Shown in pieces: positions 1-8,288 of a stretch of DNA of 8,288 nucleotides; the first letter of the stretch is position 1, and the number at the start of each line of letters is the position of its first letter. The translations under genes were made by a program, and so were the position numbers. Where the stretch lies: the NCBI GenBank assembly GCA_002849045.2, contig NCRO01000543.1, forward strand, positions 1-8,288, in the 5' to 3' direction. This DNA is from Candidatus Sediminicultor secundus. GTDB lineage: Bacteria > Atribacterota > JS1 > SB-45 > 34-128. A model generated the notes under the pieces. That model had not been told where the DNA came from, did not search any database, and saw only the letters and a program-made list of their open reading frames with translations.

Positions 1-2654
1 TCTGGAATCTTAGCTCCTTGATCCAGGGCGGCATTGGTAAGTAGATTTGCTGCTGCTTCATGGAAATGAAAACTCATAAACACCACACCTTTTCCTGATT
101 TTTCAGTAACTTTTGCCTTAGCCTTGATTTTTCCTCGACGAGAGGTTACTTCTACAAATTCTCCATCTTCGACCTTTAGTTTTTGCGCATCTTGGGGGTT
201 AATTTCCACTAATGCTTCTGGATAAATCTCGTTTAATCCTTTAGATCTTCGACTTACAGTTCCGGTGTGAAAATGATATAATACCCGGCCAGTGGTAAAG
301 AGGAAAGGGTATTCCTCGTCTGGCAGTTCGGCTGCTTCTTTAAATTCAACAGCAGAGAATTTTCCTTTTCCGCGACTGAATTTATCCTTATGAAGATATT
401 TAGTTCCCGGATGATTAGCATCAAGGCAAGGCCATTGCAACCCTGCTTTTTCTAACCGGTTGTAATACATCCCGCCATAAATTGGTGTCAGGTTAGCAAT
501 TTCTTCCATTATTTCTCCTGGATTATTATAACTCATATTATAGCCCATCTTTTGCGCTAATTCACAGATAATTTGCCATTCAGGTTTTGAATTTCCTACA
601 GGCTCTATGGCTTTTCTTATTAGTTGTACTCTTCTTTCAGTATTAGTGATAGTTCCGTCTTTTTCTGCAATAGTAACTCCTGGTAAGATTACATTAGCTA
701 ATTTTGCTGTTTCAGTCATAAAAATATCAGAAACTACTAAAAAATCAACTTTTTTTAAAGCTGCTCGGGCATGATTAAGATCGGGGTCAGACATAGCTGG
801 ATTTTCAGCCATAACAAACAACCCTCTAATTTTACCTTCATAAGCAGCATTTAACATCTCTACCACAGTTAATCCTATCTTATTGGATAAATCTACATCC
901 CAGACCTTAGAAAATTTTTCTTGAACCTTAGGATCAGTCACTTTTTGATAACCGGAATACACATTGGGCAAAGCACCTAAATCACAGGCTCCCTGTACAT
1001 TGCTTTGACCTCTTAAAGGATTAACACCGGTACTCTCCTTCCCTACATTACCGGTTAGCATAGCAATATTAGCAGTAGATAATACATTATCTGTACCAGT
1101 TATATGCTGAGTAATTCCCATCGAGTAAATTAAAGAAACAGTGGGAGCAGTTGCATAAATCCTGGCTGCTTTTCGAATATCTTCAGCCGGCACACCGGTA
1201 ATTTTTTCTACTATTTCAGGAGTGTATTTTAGAACAGTCTTTTTTAATTCTTCATATCCCTCTGTCCTCCGGTCAATAAATTTTTTATCCTCTAATCCCT
1301 CATTAATAATTACGTTCATTAACCCATTAAATAAAGCTACATCGGTACCAGGTCGTTGCCTTAACCAGAGAGTAGCGTATTTGACCAGTTCAATTTCCCG
1401 AGGGTCAACCACAATTAATTTTGCTCCATTTTTAATAACTGCCTTTTTAATCTCCAGAGCGATTATGGGATGGTTTTCGGTGGTATTAGAACCGGTTAAA
1501 TAAATTACTGAGGTATTAGCAATCTCTTCTATCGAATTGGTCATTGCCCCACTACCAAAAGCCTGAGCTAAACCAGCCACCGTAGCGGAATGACATAAGC
1601 GTGCACAATGATCAACATTATTTGTTCCTAAAACGGCTCGGCCAAATTTCATTAACAGATAATTTTCTTCATTGGTGCATTTGGCAGAAGACAAAATCCC
1701 TAAACTATCACTACCACTCTCCTTTTTGAACTGGTTAAATTTATCATTGATTAATTGCAAAGCTTCTTCCCAGGAGGCTTTTTCTAATTTTCCGTTCTTT
1801 CTAATTAAAGGAGTAGTTAACCGGTCTTTATGGTGAATATAATCGTAGCCAAAGCGTCCTTTAGCACAGAGGTTAATTCCATTTACTACGCTCTCAGAAT
1901 TAGAGGTAACTTTTACCACCTGGCCTTCCTTTATATTAAAATCAAAATTACATCCGCATCCGCAATAATTACAGGTAGTTTTTACTTTCTTAAATTCCCA
2001 AGTTCTGCCCTTCCCCTGAGCTTCCTTGTCTATCAATGCACCTACCGGGCAGACTGCAACACACTGTCCACAAAATACGCAGTTTGAATTTCTTAAATCA
2101 GTTCCTCCCTCGACTATAATCTCTGTTTTTGTTCCTCGATACCCAAAATCAATAATATTTGATTGCTGAATTTCATTACATATTTCTACACATCTTCCGC
2201 ATAACACACATTTATCCAATTCTCTTGCTATAAAAGGATTATTATTATCAACAGTGAGCTCTTTTTTATTTTGTTTAAATCTAGATTTCTTTATACCTAA
2301 ATCATAAGCCAGGTCTTCTAAAATACAAGACCCGCTCTTCTCACAAGTCATACAATCCAGAGGATGGTTGGCCAGTAAGAATTCCAAAGTCATTTTCCGG
2401 GCTCTAGCAACTCTTTTATTATTAGTATGAATTTCTAAACCTTCTCTTACCGGATAAGCACAAGAAGCAACCAATGCAGGCATATCAACAACTTCTACAA
2501 CACATATCCGACAAGAACCAGGAGTAAACCCGAGTTCAGGCATAACACATAAAGTGGGAATTTTAATACCTGCTTTTTTAGCAGCATCTAAAATAGTTAT
2601 TCCTTCTTCTGCTCTTACCTTGATATTATCTATCATTATATTTATCAAAGACAC
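1..2654 (-). CDS. fdhA: Formate dehydrogenase catalytic (alpha) subunit, NuoG-like N-terminus, Cys form, C-terminus cut by window edge
   Basis: Interconverts formate and CO2 at a molybdenum or tungsten bis-pterin site and passes electrons along an FeS chain to the NuoF/NuoE-like partners encoded just upstream. 884 codons are visible. In order: a [2Fe-2S] ferredoxin domain (C36, C48, C51, C65); a His/Cys [4Fe-4S] site (H97, C101, C104, C110); a two-cluster ferredoxin domain (C149, C152, C155, C159 and C192, C195, C198, C202); then the molybdopterin oxidoreductase part with its own [4Fe-4S] ligands (C228, C231, C235, C263) and the conserved Lys at 265. The motif HCARLCH places Cys354, followed by His, at the metal-ligand position, where many relatives have selenocysteine. 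The last visible residues (AKIP) resemble the end of family members about 890-900 residues long, so only a dozen or so are probably missing. The GTG at 2654 is preferred because it has an AGGAGG site 10 nt upstream and completes the first beta strand of the ferredoxin fold; an ATG at 2636 is the alternative. The gap to the nuoF-like gene is 54 bp. Confidence 0.93.
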   Translation of the reverse strand, partial: MSLINIMIDNIKVRAEEGITILDAAKKAGIKIPTLCVMPELGFTPGSCRICVVEVVDMPALVASCAYPVREGLEIHTNNKRVARARKMTLEFLLANHPLDCMTCEKSGSCILEDLAYDLGIKKSRFKQNKKELTVDNNNPFIARELDKCVLCGRCVEICNEIQQSNIIDFGYRGTKTEIIVEGGTDLRNSNCVFCGQCVAVCPVGALIDKEAQGKGRTWEFKKVKTTCNYCGCGCNFDFNIKEGQVVKVTSNSESVVNGINLCAKGRFGYDYIHHKDRLTTPLIRKNGKLEKASWEEALQLINDKFNQFKKESGSDSLGILSSAKCTNEENYLLMKFGRAVLGTNNVDHCARLCHSATVAGLAQAFGSGAMTNSIEEIANTSVIYLTGSNTTENHPIIALEIKKAVIKNGAKLIVVDPREIELVKYATLWLRQRPGTDVALFNGLMNVIINEGLEDKKFIDRRTEGYEELKKTVLKYTPEIVEKITGVPAEDIRKAARIYATAPTVSLIYSMGITQHITGTDNVLSTANIAMLTGNVGKESTGVNPLRGQSNVQGACDLGALPNVYSGYQKVTDPKVQEKFSKVWDVDLSNKIGLTVVEMLNAAYEGKIRGLFVMAENPAMSDPDLNHARAALKKVDFLVVSDIFMTETAKLANVILPGVTIAEKDGTITNTERRVQLIRKAIEPVGNSKPEWQIICELAQKMGYNMSYNNPGEIMEEIANLTPIYGGMYYNRLEKAGLQWPCLDANHPGTKYLHKDKFSRGKGKFSAVEFKEAAELPDEEYPFLFTTGRVLYHFHTGTVSRRSKGLNEIYPEALVEINPQDAQKLKVEDGEFVEVTSRRGKIKAKAKVTEKSGKGVVFMSFHFHEAAANLLTNAALDQGAKIP

Positions 2655-2664
2655 TGCTCTTCGC

Positions 2665-2670
2665 CCTCCT
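2665..2670 (-). promoter_or_regulatory. Shine-Dalgarno site deciding the fdhA start
   Basis: On the minus strand AGGAGG lies 10 nt before the GTG at 2654, 16 nt before an in-frame TTG at 2648 and 28 nt before the first ATG at 2636. Only the GTG is at a normal distance. The extra residues it adds (SLINIM) match the beta-strand opening expected of [2Fe-2S] ferredoxin domains. Confidence 0.65.
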
Positions 2671-2708
2671 CTTTCTAAAACTTTTCTGTCTAAATAATCA
2701 AAAACTAT

Positions 2709-4634
2709 TTATTTCTTTACTATTGCTTTAAATTTACATATTTCATAGCAAAAACCACATTGTATACATTTATCCTGGTCTAATTTGTGGGGTTGCTTCT
2801 TCTCGCCACTTATGGCATCAGCCGGGCAAGCTTTTAGACACAAACCACAGCCAACACATTTTTCCAAATCAATGCTATATTTAATTAAGCTACGGCAGAC
2901 CCCTGCTGGGCATCTCTTATGTTGTATATGAGCTTCGTATTCATTTCTGAAATATCTCAAGGTAGTCAAAACTGGATTTGGTGCTGTTTGGCCTAGTCCA
3001 CAAAGTGAAGCATCTTTAATTACTTCTCCCATTTCTTCCAGAAGTTCAATATCTCCTTCTTCGCCCTTTCCCTCGCAAATATTAGTAATAGCTCCTAACA
3101 TCCTTTTTGTCCCTTCACGACAAGGAGTACATTTACCACAAGATTCCTCCTGGCAAAAATCCATAAAGAAGCGGGCTATATCTACTGCACATTTATCCTC
3201 ATTCATCACAATTAAACCACCAGACCCCATAATCGCTCCTAATTTTTTTATAGTATCATAATCTATAGGAATATTAAGATGCTTAGCAGGAATACAACCT
3301 CCTGAAGGTCCCCCTATTTGTACTATTTTAAATCTTTTACCTTCAGGTATTCCACCGCCAATATCATAGACAACTTTGCCCAAGGTCGTTCCAATAGGGA
3401 CTTCCACCAACCCTACATTATTTACATCGCCAGTAAGAGCAAAAACTTTAGTCCCTTTACTAATCTCTGTACCTATATCAGCAAACCAAGAACTTCCTTT
3501 TAAAATTATCTGACCAATATTGGCTAATGTTTCCACATTATTTAAAACAGTTGGCTTTCCCCATAATCCAGTATTAGCTGGGAAAGGTGGTCGAGTTTGG
3601 GGCATCCCTCTTTTACCTTCAATAGATCTCATTAAGGCTGTTTCTTCTCCACAAACAAAAGCTCCTGCACCCCGGTAAATCTTTAAATCAAAATTAAATC
3701 CTGTTTCTAAAATATTCTTACCTAATAGACCACATTTTTTAGCCTGATTTATCGCTTTATTCAACATTTTTATAGCCAAAGGATATTCGGCACGGCAATA
3801 GATATAACCCTGATGAGCACCTATAGCTTTTGCTGCAATAATCATTCCTTCAATGACAGCATGAGGGTCTCCTTCCAAAATACTTCTATCCATATAAGCT
3901 CCAGGGTCACCCTCATCAGCGTTACAAAGAATGTATTTTACTTTACTTTCTGCCTGGGCTGCAAATTTCCATTTGATACCTGTTGGAAAACCTGCTCCCC
4001 CTCTTCCTTTTAATCCCGAATTTATAACTTCCTGAATAATTTCTTCCGGAGACATCTCTTTTAGGGCTTTTACCATCCCCATATATCCATCCCTGGCAAT
4101 ATAATCTTCAATTTTTTCCGGATCAATTATCCCACGATTTTTCAATACTCTTATCTCTTGATTTGAAAAAAAAGGGATTTCTTCTATACCGGGTATGGTT
4201 TTATCTAACACAATTTCATCAGGCAGGATACCTTTATATTTAATTCTTTCCTTAATTTGCCCTTCTTTGCCCCTTGCCAAAGCATAAACAGCAAGAACTT
4301 TTCCTTCTAAAATATGCTTTTTAAAAACTTCCAACATCTTCTCTTTGTCCATATACTGATAAATTATTGGTTCCTGTTTAAATATCTCCACAGTAATTAA
4401 AGGCTCTTTACTACATAATCCCATACAGCCAGAAGTAATAATAGTAATATCTTTTTGTTTTCTTTTCTTAATTTCCTTCGTCAGAGCATCCATAATTTTT
4501 TGGGCACCCGAAGCAATACCGCAGGTGCCCATATGGATGGTTATTCTTATTCTTTTTCCTTTTTTTGATAATTTTCTTTTAGCTAAGGTATGCTTCTTAA
4601 TTTTTAAAAAATCTTCTATCTTAATTTTTTCCAC
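2709..4634 (-). CDS. nuoF: NuoF/HydB/HndC-like FMN- and NAD(H)-binding subunit of formate dehydrogenase
   Basis: Flavoprotein subunit that exchanges electrons between NAD(H) and the FeS chain of the neighbouring formate dehydrogenase. The 641 residues hold: a thioredoxin-like [2Fe-2S] domain (about 28-115; C38, C70, C74); the 51-kDa core with the glycine-rich GRGGAGFPTG (211-220), the CNADEGDPGA flavin/nucleotide motif (237-246) and GAGAFVCGEETAL (322-334); the N3-type [4Fe-4S] ligands C499, C502, C505 and C545; and a C-terminal ferredoxin domain with two Cx2Cx2Cx3C motifs (C593-C603 and C623-C633). This layout is typical of the subunits in bifurcating [FeFe]-hydrogenases and NAD-dependent formate dehydrogenases, not of plain respiratory NuoF, which lacks both end domains. 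Start is GTG with AAGGGG 6 nt upstream. The gap to the nuoE-like gene is 32 bp. The N-terminal cluster domain has three rather than four Cys. Codons for residues 97-120 recur inverted at the right end of the window. Calling it part of a formate dehydrogenase rests on its neighbour. Confidence 0.93.
   Translation of the reverse strand: MEKIKIEDFLKIKKHTLAKRKLSKKGKRIRITIHMGTCGIASGAQKIMDALTKEIKKRKQKDITIITSGCMGLCSKEPLITVEIFKQEPIIYQYMDKEKMLEVFKKHILEGKVLAVYALARGKEGQIKERIKYKGILPDEIVLDKTIPGIEEIPFFSNQEIRVLKNRGIIDPEKIEDYIARDGYMGMVKALKEMSPEEIIQEVINSGLKGRGGAGFPTGIKWKFAAQAESKVKYILCNADEGDPGAYMDRSILEGDPHAVIEGMIIAAKAIGAHQGYIYCRAEYPLAIKMLNKAINQAKKCGLLGKNILETGFNFDLKIYRGAGAFVCGEETALMRSIEGKRGMPQTRPPFPANTGLWGKPTVLNNVETLANIGQIILKGSSWFADIGTEISKGTKVFALTGDVNNVGLVEVPIGTTLGKVVYDIGGGIPEGKRFKIVQIGGPSGGCIPAKHLNIPIDYDTIKKLGAIMGSGGLIVMNEDKCAVDIARFFMDFCQEESCGKCTPCREGTKRMLGAITNICEGKGEEGDIELLEEMGEVIKDASLCGLGQTAPNPVLTTLRYFRNEYEAHIQHKRCPAGVCRSLIKYSIDLEKCVGCGLCLKACPADAISGEKKQPHKLDQDKCIQCGFCYEICKFKAIVKK
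4275..4348 (-). repeat. Inverted repeat copy 1 (74 bp), inside the nuoF-like gene
   Basis: This segment, encoding residues 97-120 of the nuoF-like protein plus two bases of codon 96, is repeated without a mismatch as the reverse complement at 8215-8288. Here it sits in an intact, family-typical reading frame, so this is the original copy. Confidence 0.97.
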
Positions 4635-4666
4635 AGTTTTCCCCTTTCCTGTCTTAACCTTAACCG

Positions 4667-5161
4667 CTATTTATATTGTTCTAATATCTCTTTCACCTTT
4701 GAAGGTTTAACTCTCCCATAAACTTCTCCATCAACTACTATTACCGGAGCTAATCCACAAGCTCCGAGGCATCTTACTGTTTCATAAGTAAATATTCTAT
4801 CGGTAGTGGTCTCTCCGGGTTTTACTCCAAATTCTTCCTCTATTGTTTCCGTAATCTTCTTGCCTCCTCTAACATAGCAAGCCGTACCTAAGCAGACCTG
4901 GACCGTGTGTTTACCTCGAGGGGTTATAGTAAAGAATGAATAAAAAGTTACTATTCCATAAATTCTGCTTAAAGGGATATTTGTTTTATTAGATATTTGT
5001 TTCTGAATATTAACAGGCAGATATCTAAGGAGATCTTGAGCTTCCTCTAGCAAGGGAATTATTCCTCCAGGCTCCACTCTGTATTTTTCAATAATTTTAT
5101 TTAATTCATCTATCTGCTCAAGCGTAAATTCTTCTAACAAATTATCAACCTGCCGTTCCAT
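4667..5161 (-). CDS. nuoE: NuoE/HydC/HndA-like [2Fe-2S] subunit
   Basis: Small electron-transfer subunit that pairs with the NuoF-like flavoprotein encoded next to it. At 164 residues it has the normal family length: an N-terminal helical part (about 1-80, with the family-typical YGIVTFYSFF at 68-77) and a thioredoxin-like [2Fe-2S] domain with ligands C90 and C95 in CLGTACYVRGG and C131 and C135 in CLGACGLAP. All four ligands are present. The ATG at 5161 has a good GGAG site 7 nt upstream (5169-5172). It is the first gene of the nuoE-nuoF-fdhA operon: 240 bp of AT-rich DNA precedes it and the nuoF-like gene follows after 32 bp. On its own it could equally serve an [FeFe]-hydrogenase; the adjacent formate dehydrogenase gene decides the assignment. 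Confidence 0.93.
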   Translation of the reverse strand: MERQVDNLLEEFTLEQIDELNKIIEKYRVEPGGIIPLLEEAQDLLRYLPVNIQKQISNKTNIPLSRIYGIVTFYSFFTITPRGKHTVQVCLGTACYVRGGKKITETIEEEFGVKPGETTTDRIFTYETVRCLGACGLAPVIVVDGEVYGRVKPSKVKEILEQYK

Positions 5162-5302
5162 CTCTTTTCTCCACCTACTAATAAAAAGCTATAAATCTCT
5201 ATCTTACTATTACTAAAAATTTATTAATGGATAAAATCTAAACAATTTTTACTTAATATAATATTCTTTGTTGTTGGCTATGCACGTTTAAAATATAAAT
5301 TA

Positions 5303-5331
5303 ATTATATCCTATAATAAGATATTATCCAA
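5303..5331 (-). promoter_or_regulatory. Possible sigma-A-type promoter for the nuoE-nuoF-fdhA operon
   Basis: Read on the minus strand, TTGGAT (5331-5326) and a perfect TATAAT (5308-5303) are separated by 17 nt. It points towards nuoE and would give a leader of roughly 135 nt. The -35 box matches the consensus only in its first three bases, and the AT-rich background makes chance -10 boxes common, so this is a prediction. I see no riboswitch-like or attenuator structure in the leader. Confidence 0.42.
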
Positions 5332-5366
5332 TATAATCTTAATAAAAATTAATTTTCGCAAAATCT

Positions 5367-5394
5367 AAACTTTATGTTCATTGAAAACTTTATG
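5367..5394 (-). repeat. Direct repeat CATAAAGTTT upstream of the promoter
   Basis: The ten bases CATAAAGTTT occur at 5394-5385 and again at 5376-5367 on the minus strand, 18 nt apart start to start, about 35 nt upstream of the predicted -35 box. The second copy runs into GTTTAGATTTT (5370-5360), which recurs at 5243-5233 in the predicted leader. This could be an activator or repressor site or simple AT-rich repetition. Confidence 0.4.
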
Positions 5395-5401
5395 AATGTT
5401 A

Positions 5402-5689
5402 TTATTTTTTATCTTTCAGGGTTTCTTTTGTTCTGTCTATACCGATAACCCATAAAGCTTTATACGCCAATATAGCAATTACTCCACCTGATAGAGCAGT
5501 AAACAATTGAGGTAAACTCATAATTTGAGCTATCTTATCAGGTACATCTACAATATAACTTACTGCTATAAACAAAATTAAATATTTAACCAAGGAAACA
5601 ATAATAATTCCTAAAATTTTATTTTTTCCTTTTAATAGACTAAAAACAACCACTAAGACACCATTACTTAGAGTAATAACACCAAGATC
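5402..5689 (-). pseudogene. Probable 3' remnant of a multi-pass membrane protein (ECF S-component-like)
   Basis: From a GTG at 5653 the frame codes for 83 residues with two hydrophobic stretches (about 13-35 and 49-67), a PQLFTALSGG motif between the first and second, and a basic tail ending KDKK. The open frame continues 12 codons upstream of the GTG (DLGVITLSNGVL), which reads like more of the same membrane protein, until a TAA at 5692-5690. Neither the GTG nor that extension has a ribosome-binding site, and no matching N-terminal half appears in any frame up to 5845. The PQLxTALxGG motif and the two-helix end resemble the C-terminal half of ECF-transporter S components, which are usually about twice this length; that is recall, not a search. 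The alternative is a genuine small membrane protein. It lies between the ferredoxin-type gene and the nuoE operon and probably belongs to neither. Confidence 0.45.
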
Positions 5690-5845
5690 TTATTTTTCTT
5701 TTGGAAATTGTTAAGATCGTGGACATATGTAACATTACAATAAAGGCAGGTATAATTTAGGCTATAATTTAAATTTCTTTTTATGGTAAATCATGAATTA
5801 TTCTAATTGTTTGGTATTTTTTCCATAAATTTTGTTTATTATTTC
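5690..5845. other. AT-rich spacer without a recognisable gene
   Basis: Separates the ferredoxin-type gene (stop at 5846) from the membrane-protein remnant. All frames are broken by stops. It holds a short tandem repeat (TAAATTATAGCC then TAAATTATACC, minus strand 5771-5749) and a 7-bp inverted repeat (GATCTTA at 5686-5692 with TAAGATC at 5712-5718). No GC-rich hairpin followed by a T-run is visible, so no terminator can be named. Confidence 0.6.
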
Positions 5846-6460
5846 CTACTCTTTCGTAGTCAAGGTAGTCTCTCTTCTACAACGGGCACAAAGAATTTTT
5901 ACCCGGTCAGAACGTCCTTGGTCTTTAAATATTGATAAAATATTCTCATCTATAATACCAAGGCTTTTTAGCCGTGATAGATAAAGGGTAGGATTTGAAT
6001 AGGTTAATTCACCTATTTTTTCAGATATCCACTTTAAATGATCCTTACAGGCAATAGGTTTACCGCAGATTTCACAGAGCTGTAATTCTTTTTCTATTCG
6101 CTCGTCGGATTTGTTTCTATCAAAAAACGAAAGTTCCCATTCATTGGATAATTTAATTCCTTTGTGATCAGCAATACATGCCGCCTCACACTCTCCACAG
6201 AATATGCAGGTATCTGTATAATGTATTATAATTCTCTTAGCATTACCATTTTTATCTACTATATCTTTATGGTCAATTGCTTCTACAGGACATACTTCCT
6301 TACACGCAAGACAACCAACACATCTGTCTTGATTAAATTCGGGTTGACCCCTGAAATTAGGATGAGCCGTATGCGGTTCTTTTGGAAATTTAGAAGTATA
6401 CGGTCCCTTAATGAATGCTTTTATCGCCTCTATTAGCTCTCTTATCTTTGGAAATTTCAT
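5846..6460 (-). CDS. NuoI/HycF/EchF-like 2x[4Fe-4S] subunit with a C-terminal Cys-pair extension
   Basis: Electron-carrying subunit expected to link a soluble donor (ferredoxin or formate dehydrogenase) to a membrane-bound, Mrp-associated hydrogenase or Complex-I-like unit. Of 204 residues, positions 1-45 contain the family-typical PYTSKFP and FRGQP stretches; C47, C50, C53 and C57 form the first cluster, and C85, C88, C91 and C95 the second. The second motif ends CIADHKGI instead of the usual Cys-Pro. After the NuoI-type sequence NEWELSFFDR (106-115) comes an extension with C129xxC132, a further C138, and C191xxC194 near the end, which could hold Zn or another metal centre. It has no membrane segment. 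Start ATG at 6460 with a weak GAG-type ribosome site. The gap to mrpG is 37 bp in the same direction, so it is probably the last gene of the mrp series. The exact complex cannot be named because the catalytic subunits lie outside the window. Confidence 0.82.
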   Translation of the reverse strand: MKFPKIRELIEAIKAFIKGPYTSKFPKEPHTAHPNFRGQPEFNQDRCVGCLACKEVCPVEAIDHKDIVDKNGNAKRIIIHYTDTCIFCGECEAACIADHKGIKLSNEWELSFFDRNKSDERIEKELQLCEICGKPIACKDHLKWISEKIGELTYSNPTLYLSRLKSLGIIDENILSIFKDQGRSDRVKILCARCRRETTLTTKE

Positions 6461-6497
6461 ATTACAACTCTTTTCTCATTTAATTCTTAATCCTGAT

Positions 6498-6833
6498 TTA
6501 AGCTTCTCCTTCTTTATCTTCGGCATATTTATCAACGCTACTACCTTCCCAGAGTTTTACTCCTGCTCTGTGTGCACCTCTGGCTACAGCATGTGCTGCT
6601 ACTGGAGCTGTTAGAGCAAGAAATATCATACATAAGAGCGACTTTATTCCAGCAGCAGTAAATCCTACTATAAGAAATGTGCCAAATAGAATACTGCAGG
6701 TACCCAGAGTAACGCACTTTGTAGCTGCCTGCAGACGACAATATACATCCGGAAGACGTACAAGCCCCAGACACCCAAAGACATCAAAAGTCAGACCTAT
6801 ACTAATAAATATCAAACCTATAATGTTAATCAT
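6498..6833 (-). CDS. mrpG: Mrp/Mnh antiporter subunit G
   Basis: Small membrane subunit of Mrp-type Na+/H+ antiporters and of the related antiporter part of membrane-bound hydrogenases. At 111 residues it has three hydrophobic segments (about 2-22, 44-64 and 66-84). The family signature LGLVRLPDVYCRLQAATK spans 22-39, and LTAPVAAHAVARGAHR follows the third helix. The hydrophilic tail is acidic. Start: ATG at 6833, with GAGGGG 9 nt upstream inside mrpF; a TTG one codon earlier (6836) is possible. The gene overlaps the end of mrpF by 8 nt, which points to coupled translation. Confidence 0.93.
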   Translation of the reverse strand: MINIIGLIFISIGLTFDVFGCLGLVRLPDVYCRLQAATKCVTLGTCSILFGTFLIVGFTAAGIKSLLCMIFLALTAPVAAHAVARGAHRAGVKLWEGSSVDKYAEDKEGEA

Positions 6834-7194
6834 CAAACCCTTTCCCCTCTAAATATTTAGAAAGCGCAAGTGCGCATATAAAACTCTGAAGTGCCCATGC
6901 TATACCTATATCTATATACCAGGATCTCCCTGTTGAAATAGTCAAAACCGCACATAGCCCAACAATCATAATACCCAGAATATCGATAGCAACTATCCTG
7001 TCAGCACCCGTTGGACCTCTCCATACTCGGTAAAGGCATAAAATACATGCTAGAATAATTATGTAGAGAACTCTACCTAAAAAATTAATATAGGGAAGGT
7101 CGGGATAGAAAAGAAATGGAAACGGGCGTATTATAATTAAAATAACTATCCCAACCAAAAAAATCATACCTATAAACCATTTAAATATCTTCAT
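6826..7194 (-). CDS. mrpF: Mrp/Mnh antiporter subunit F, with an N-terminal extension
   Basis: Small membrane subunit of the Mrp antiporter module. The family core is clear: a helix at about 40-55, the signature RVWRGPTGADRIVAID (56-71), and two further helices (about 72-88 and 93-112). At 122 residues it is some 25-35 longer than usual MrpF. The extra part is an N-terminal hydrophobic segment (about 6-23) and a Pro/Phe-rich link (RPFPFLFYPDLPY). The ATG at 7194 is supported by AGAGGA 6 nt upstream, so the extension is probably real. The next internal Met, residue 10, lies within the hydrophobic segment. It follows mrpE after 10 bp and overlaps mrpG. Confidence 0.92.
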   Translation of the reverse strand: MKIFKWFIGMIFLVGIVILIIIRPFPFLFYPDLPYINFLGRVLYIIILACILCLYRVWRGPTGADRIVAIDILGIMIVGLCAVLTISTGRSWYIDIGIAWALQSFICALALSKYLEGKGFDD

Positions 7195-7204
7195 ACTCTA
7201 TCCT

Positions 7205-7702
7205 CTAATCAAAAATCTTTTTTAACACTTTCTCGAAACGGTCTACGATAATTCTTGTAGCTAATTCAACATCTTTTGTCTTTACGTCAATCCAATGTAT
7301 ATACAAAATACCATTATCTTTATCTATATCAACACTCATAGTGCCTGGTGTTAAGGTTATGGAGTTGGCTAAAAATGTCAAGGCCGTATCTGTGGTTAAT
7401 TTAGTCCTTACTTTAACTATCCCTGGATGTATAGGCAACCGAGGATGCAAAACACGGTATGCAACATCCAGATTAGCCTTAAAGCATTCCCATAAGAACA
7501 TAGGTAAATAATAAACAAAGAAATACCAGTACCGCGATGGATGCATCAACACATGTGGCCGGGTTATAAATAAATCTCCTACCATAAAGGCAACAAATAC
7601 AGAAACAAATCCTCCAATAATAAGATGCTGCCAATCCGGCACCCAATTTAAAAGACACCATACTATAAATGCTACGAAAAACATACTTATTCTACTCTTC
7701 AT
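7205..7702 (-). CDS. mrpE: Mrp/Mnh antiporter subunit E
   Basis: Membrane subunit of the Mrp antiporter module. Its 165 residues match the usual MrpE length and plan: hydrophobic helices at the start (about 5-21 and 25-45), another around 58-73, then a soluble domain. The domain carries the family-typical VAYRVLHPRLPIHPGIV (80-96) and LANSITLTPGTMSVDI (111-126) and ends in a charged helix. The ATG at 7702 directly follows the mrpD stop codon (TAG ATG with no gap). An AAGGGG site lies 9 nt upstream inside mrpD. The D-E-F-G order matches Mrp operons and their relatives in membrane-bound hydrogenase clusters. Confidence 0.93.
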   Translation of the reverse strand: MKSRISMFFVAFIVWCLLNWVPDWQHLIIGGFVSVFVAFMVGDLFITRPHVLMHPSRYWYFFVYYLPMFLWECFKANLDVAYRVLHPRLPIHPGIVKVRTKLTTDTALTFLANSITLTPGTMSVDIDKDNGILYIHWIDVKTKDVELATRIIVDRFEKVLKKIFD

Positions 7703-8218
7703 CTATTGTATCCCCTTAAAGACTATATCAGCATATTTTGTACCTTCTAAAAGTACGTCAGAAGCAGGCTTAAGAAAAATCTCGTTTATGTTATAAATAA
7801 GCAAAACTCCTCCAACTACACAAATAAGTGCTAGAATTACCATCGCCAGTTTCATGAAAACAGGAACTTCCTCTACCTTGTTCCATTTCTCTTTCAGCTT
7901 ACCAAAGAAGGCATACTTCATAACCTTCATAAAAGATGCTAAAGTTAATATACTTGCCAGTACAGCCCAGAAAGCATATCCTAAGCGATTAGCCTGCACA
8001 CATGCAATTATAATAATCAATTTACTCCAGAAACCGTTAAAAGGAGGAATACCTGCAATTGACATAGAGGCAACAAGACTTGTAGTGCCTGTGATAGGCA
8101 TTTTTGTCATTAGCCCTCCCATTTTTTGTAAATCGCGTGTGCCGGTTGCGTATTCCACTGCTCCTGAATTTAAAAATAGCAATGACTTAAATACAGAATG
8201 GTTAAAAAGATGGAACAA
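7703..8218 (-). CDS. mrpD: MrpD/NuoN-like ion-translocating antiporter subunit, 3' part only
   Basis: C-terminal third of a proton-conducting antiporter subunit of the MrpD/NuoL-M-N family, which are normally about 480-500 residues. The first trustworthy residues, FHLFNHSVFKSLLFL, match the helix containing the conserved channel Lys in these proteins. IAGIPPFNGFWSK is the matching loop/helix motif further on. Several more membrane helices follow. Placement directly before mrpE makes MrpD the best name, though related Ech/Hyf-type antiporter subunits cannot be excluded. The TTG at 8218 is not a real start: it falls in the middle of a conserved helix and inside the inverted 74-bp copy. The native gene sequence stops at about 8214, and the frame meets a TAA at 8278-8276 in foreign sequence. 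The 5' two thirds are therefore missing because of the join, not because the protein is short. Confidence 0.85.
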   Translation of the reverse strand: MFHLFNHSVFKSLLFLNSGAVEYATGTRDLQKMGGLMTKMPITGTTSLVASMSIAGIPPFNGFWSKLIIIIACVQANRLGYAFWAVLASILTLASFMKVMKYAFFGKLKEKWNKVEEVPVFMKLAMVILALICVVGGVLLIYNINEIFLKPASDVLLEGTKYADIVFKGIQ

Positions 8219-8288
8219 AGAGAAGATGTTGGAAGTTTTTAAAAAGCATATTTTAGAAGGAAAAGTTCTTGCTGTTTATGCTTTGGCA
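8215..8288 (+). repeat. Inverted repeat copy 2 (74 bp) at the window end: chimeric join
   Basis: Read on the plus strand, this is an exact copy of the minus-strand nuoF-like coding sequence at 4348-4275, giving residues 97-120 (KEKMLEVFKK and onwards). It replaces the expected upstream part of the mrpD-like gene. The matching stretch begins at 8215; the base before it (8214) already differs. The copy has no start codon or N-terminal domain in front of it, so it is not a second nuoF gene in place. Confidence 0.95.

Follow-up and report, generated by a model that had tools for sequence, protein, structure and literature searches.

Inverted joins have been described both in amplified DNA and in unamplified bacterial DNA. 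For multiple-displacement amplification (MDA), Lasken and Stockwell (2007; PMC1855051) give figures for 475 sequenced chimeras, of which 406 were inverted; in 337 of these inversions the two segments lay less than 10 kb apart. The route they describe is priming by displaced 3' ends on other displaced strands close by, and complementarity of at least 2 nt was found at 76.8 per cent of joins (up to 21 nt) and at 93.5 per cent of the inverted joins spanning less than 10 kb. A further account of MDA chimeras gives overlaps mostly of 5-8 nt with a peak at 6, and a commonest chimeric distance of 250-300 nt within a range from 0 to over 5,000 (PMC4595205). A single-cell draft genome with mis-assemblies from chimeric clones has also been reported (PMC2859065). 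For unamplified Salmonella DNA, a cut-off of 12 bp was deduced for true inversions, a length of microhomology that is usual for the true inversions of that study and not strictly defining; the candidates had been chosen for long overlaps (at least 7-9 bp among single reads) (PMC3411829).

Here we describe a join at the end of a stretch of 8,288 nt (the window) from contig NCRO01000543.1 of Candidatus Sediminicultor secundus. The window has a G+C content of 35.7 per cent and contains no N. Its features are collected in Table 1. The molybdopterin oxidoreductase passes the cut-off for formate dehydrogenase alpha, while the ECF-transporter fragment has no family match of its own and was named through its alignment to a frame in genome G001 that matches ECF_trnsprt. 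G001 is the nearest genome among those compared and shares 43 per cent of sampled 31-mers with the window. Identity between window positions 1-8219 and G001 (loci L001 and L009) ranges from 84.8 to 98.2 per cent across 400-nt blocks with at least 79 aligned bases, a variation that possibly reflects recombination or uneven constraint.

Table 1. Gene order in the window and coordinates of the features that make up the terminal join.
Feature	Coordinates	Strand	Basis
Minus-strand genes in descending coordinate order: mrpD (cut), mrpE, mrpF, mrpG, 4Fe-4S protein		-	
Minus-strand order, continued: ECF-transporter gene fragment, nuoE, nuoF, molybdopterin oxidoreductase		-	
Source segment of the inverted copy, within nuoF-like gene (2709-4634, minus strand)	4275..4348	-	repeat finder, gene annotation
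3' part of mrpD-like gene (monovalent cation/H+ antiporter subunit D), cut by the join	7703..8219	-	annotation, alignment
Inverted copy of 4275-4348 (74 nt), ending on the last base of the window	8215..8288	+	repeat finder, letter check
ACAAA, 5-bp microhomology common to the relatives' mrpD and nuoF; join point	8215..8219	+	alignment to L009, L010, L011
Sequence foreign to mrpD, differing from three relatives	8220..8288	+	alignment, translation

An earlier reading made from the letters alone had claimed that the window closes with an exact inverted copy of a 74-bp nuoF segment and that this copy extends to the final base. Both claims held. A repeat finder and a letter-by-letter check agreed on 74 of 74 bases between 8215-8288 and the reverse complement of 4275-4348; the copy reaches position 8288, and 3866 nt lie between the two arms. 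Elsewhere in the window (1-8214) exact inverted words are at most 14 nt long, which rules out a chance repeat. Among the relatives, the best ungapped matches to the source segment are in L001 (72/74), L092 (67/74) and L010 (64/74). Those in L001 and L010 fall in stretches collinear with the window's nuoF, and that in L092 (contig C98 of genome G009) sits within a nuoF-like frame. The relatives match the tail only in stretches of these two kinds, and a search of 8100-8288 against plasmid records gave no match at E 1e-5; on these grounds we reject an origin of the tail in a mobile element or a repeat family.

On the other side of the join, the protein encoded by the mrpD fragment is 98 per cent identical to that of JAUVOA010000038.1 from Atribacterota bacterium CSMAG_624 (L009, contig C280 of G001), 92 per cent to that of JAHJOY010000083.1, labelled only 'bacterium' (L010, contig C48 of G010), and 89 per cent to that of PFIP01000058.1 from Candidatus Atribacteria (L011, contig C2 of G003), as found among the best 80 of 306 related places. 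The frame of the D subunit is open in each of them, measuring 510, 505 and 505 codons from stop to stop in L009, L010 and L011, respectively, and the L009 frame matches models of monovalent cation/H+ antiporter subunit D over nearly the full length of the frame, with scores below the models' cut-offs. No 12-mers of the nuoF copy occur within 3 kb upstream of the breakpoint in any of the three. A comparison with related genomes had been proposed as a way to decide the matter, and in all three close relatives that hold this stretch mrpD continues past the join.

The alignments place the breakpoint at 8219/8220: the window is collinear with mrpD of L009, L010 and L011 through 8219 and diverges from all three from 8220 on. 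The sequence-only reading had mrpD lost exactly where the copy starts, and here it needs correction, since the relatives agree with the window for five bases more. Positions 8215-8219 thus fit both parents, making a 5-bp overlap at the join that the sequence-only reading had not noticed. When window sequence was joined at random in inverted orientation 400,000 times, 0.72 per cent of the joins had five or more shared bases (P = 0.0072; mean 0.73 bases), and with one gap allowed the shared stretch can be written as ATGG(A)ACAAA, or 9/10. We also compared 7980-8288 with 62 loci (L001-L062, of 88) using blastn. No alignment to these loci spans the junction; the mrpD-side alignments that reach it stop between 8215 and 8222, and the nuoF-side matches (L001, L008 and L010) begin at 8210 or 8217. 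Beyond the join, 19 more codons (8219-8275) can be read in the mrpD frame before it meets a minus-strand TAA at 8278-8276.

With a probability of roughly 0.8, the tail is a chimera made by template switching in vitro, most likely while a low-input or single-cell sample was being amplified by phi29 MDA. Like the inverted chimeras of Lasken and Stockwell (2007), the join brings together segments in opposite orientation, skips the stretch between them, has arms less than 10 kb apart and shows complementarity at the join, here of 5 nt, the same number as in the example drawn in that paper. Unlike those chimeras, it is known only as the end of an assembled sequence, and we infer that the sample had undergone MDA, which way the switch ran and how the assembler proceeded. 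The spacing of 3.9 kb is within the range given in PMC4595205 but off its 250-300 nt peak, which counts against MDA. The earlier preference for an artefact over a real duplication is supported by the orientation and spacing of the join, its microhomology and the intact mrpD of the relatives; the join also turned up nowhere else in the sequences searched, few of which hold the locus.

Under this explanation, the 3' end of a strand being extended along mrpD would have detached after base 8219, and its last five bases (ACAAA) would have annealed to the TTTGT at 4344-4348 of a displaced strand. Extension on that strand would then have added part of nuoF, in inverted orientation, behind mrpD. An identical junction would result from the mirror event, in which the 3' end comes from nuoF and anneals in mrpD. 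An assembler that took the chimeric branch would halt on meeting nuoF sequence already present in its graph, and the failure to choose the true mrpD path would fit the uneven coverage of MDA. The length of 74 nt may therefore reflect a value near the assembler's k, and the copy itself could be of another length; by analogy with G001, 74 may equal k-1 for k = 75. In that genome the neighbouring contig pairs C280-C210 and C210-C4 overlap by exactly 141 nt each, and the title of the L009 contig reads k141, from which it follows that a de Bruijn assembler can leave an exact short shared stretch at a branch. These 141-nt overlaps also allow C280, C210 and C4 to be ordered as fragments of one locus.

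The alternative that survives best, though we regard it as unlikely, is that the sampled cell or population recently underwent a real inversion or inverted duplication that truncated one copy of mrpD. Such an event could have arisen by microhomology-driven template switching or as a tandem-inversion duplication. With its 5-bp overlap and no N, the join resembles a physical molecule, and a rare event using 5 bp of homology would look identical. Against it stand the uninterrupted mrpD at the join point in three relatives and the placement of a 74/74 identical copy at the very end of the sequence. Spontaneous inversions do occur in bacterial populations, and the Salmonella junctions likewise join opposite strands at shared bases (PMC3411829). 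The 5 bp found here fall short of the 12-bp cut-off given in that study; since its candidates were selected for long overlaps, the cut-off is partly a selection effect, and the shortfall counts only a little and does not exclude a real inversion. We think it quite improbable that a sub-population carries an inverted duplication truncating mrpD of the Mrp operon beside the NuoEF and formate-dehydrogenase genes; if it did, microhomology would have driven a recent rearrangement at a locus of energy conservation.

Searches for the same join elsewhere are a weak test of a real rearrangement, which other genomes may lack if it is recent. With up to 3 mismatches allowed, a 33-nt junction pattern was found in 0 of 61 genomes, few of which hold the locus. 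The exact 25-nt junction, a pattern that can miss a diverged copy of the join, was found in 0 of 106 loci (again, few hold the locus) and in no viral contigs. When window positions 8100-8288 were used in a family search of 14 genomes, four gave matches; the other ten gave none and are uninformative. Three matches span 8100-8219, three others are confined to the nuoF side, and a weak one stops at 8215; none of the matches in these 14 genomes spans the junction. The mrpD side up to the join is matched in only three of the 14, on the contigs of L009-L011, so the genome hits and these loci are not independent witnesses.

We also looked for similar structures in other contigs. We tested 96 true contig ends, from 61 of the 80 MAG loci and mainly of other phyla, for an exact terminal copy, direct or inverted, of at least 20 nt that recurs at another place in the locus, and none had one. 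Internal inverted words of at least 40 nt were found in five of 94 loci (L018, L047, L050, L061 and L069), and no position printed for them is at a contig end. L061 and L069 begin with N runs, as does L018, where any other inverted pair was not separated out, and L050 is a local palindrome. L047 has a real inverted pair about 0.7 kb apart, from which it follows that natural inverted repeats of such size occur in such contigs.

If the chimera arose not by MDA but in library preparation or in PCR of unamplified DNA, the product would have an identical form, and inverted chimeras made by ligation are described for nanopore libraries (PMC13141652). Such a chimera would usually be a single molecule and would seldom beat the true path in assembly, and the 3.9-kb spacing with a 5-bp priming overlap fits MDA, so we hold this origin to be improbable as well. 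Contig ends are a frequent site of computational misassembly, but a purely computational join with no chimeric molecule behind it is very improbable, as the shared bases (5, or 9/10 with one gap) fall short of every k-mer length in usual use and the join contains no N gap. The sequence-only reading had named MDA or misassembly as the source; the first of these is the likely source, and the second, in its purely computational form, is unlikely. With only five bases shared, too few for a join in the assembly graph, a chimeric molecule probably existed.

The window holds a second join, in direct orientation, between nuoE and the 4Fe-4S gene, where AATAA (5675-5679) is shared. The window matches the ECF-gene side of G001:C210 over 5121-5679 and of G009:C98 over 5346-5679, with both matches stopping at 5679, and a further match, to G001:C210 near the 4Fe-4S gene, begins at 5674. 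The join points are about 5.8 kb apart in G001:C210, and this stretch is missing from the window. In G001 it contains a NuoF-like gene, a group A6 [FeFe] hydrogenase and a TM1266-family regulator and takes in the beginning of the ECF gene; by our own reading there is also a putative NuoE-like frame. What the window retains of the ECF gene is an 83-codon frame (5402-5653); the full-length protein has 170 aa (G001) or 171 aa (G009). Fifteen metagenome proteins were found, seven of which were fetched and aligned, and two of the fifteen (P0002 and P0004) start at the same codon as the window's fragment. This shared start could reflect a contig edge or a different choice of start codon. Because direct joins of less than 10 kb are rare among MDA chimeras (11/475; Lasken and Stockwell 2007) and because P0002 and P0004 share the start, we lean towards a natural deletion for this second join, a reading that is unproven and has another artefact as its alternative.

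The same spot differs in G010, where a gene for the Rex redox repressor lies between the 4Fe-4S gene and nuoE (L010, 12425-13069) and no hydrogenase frame is listed. No frame comparable to Rex is listed there in the window (frames of at least 80 aa) or in G001:C210 (at least 70 aa). The spot between nuoE and the 4Fe-4S gene is variable within the group.

For the terminal join, the reading as an amplification chimera means that positions 8220-8288 should be masked and that mrpD should not be annotated as naturally broken in this organism. Other ends of the same assembly may also carry amplification chimeras.
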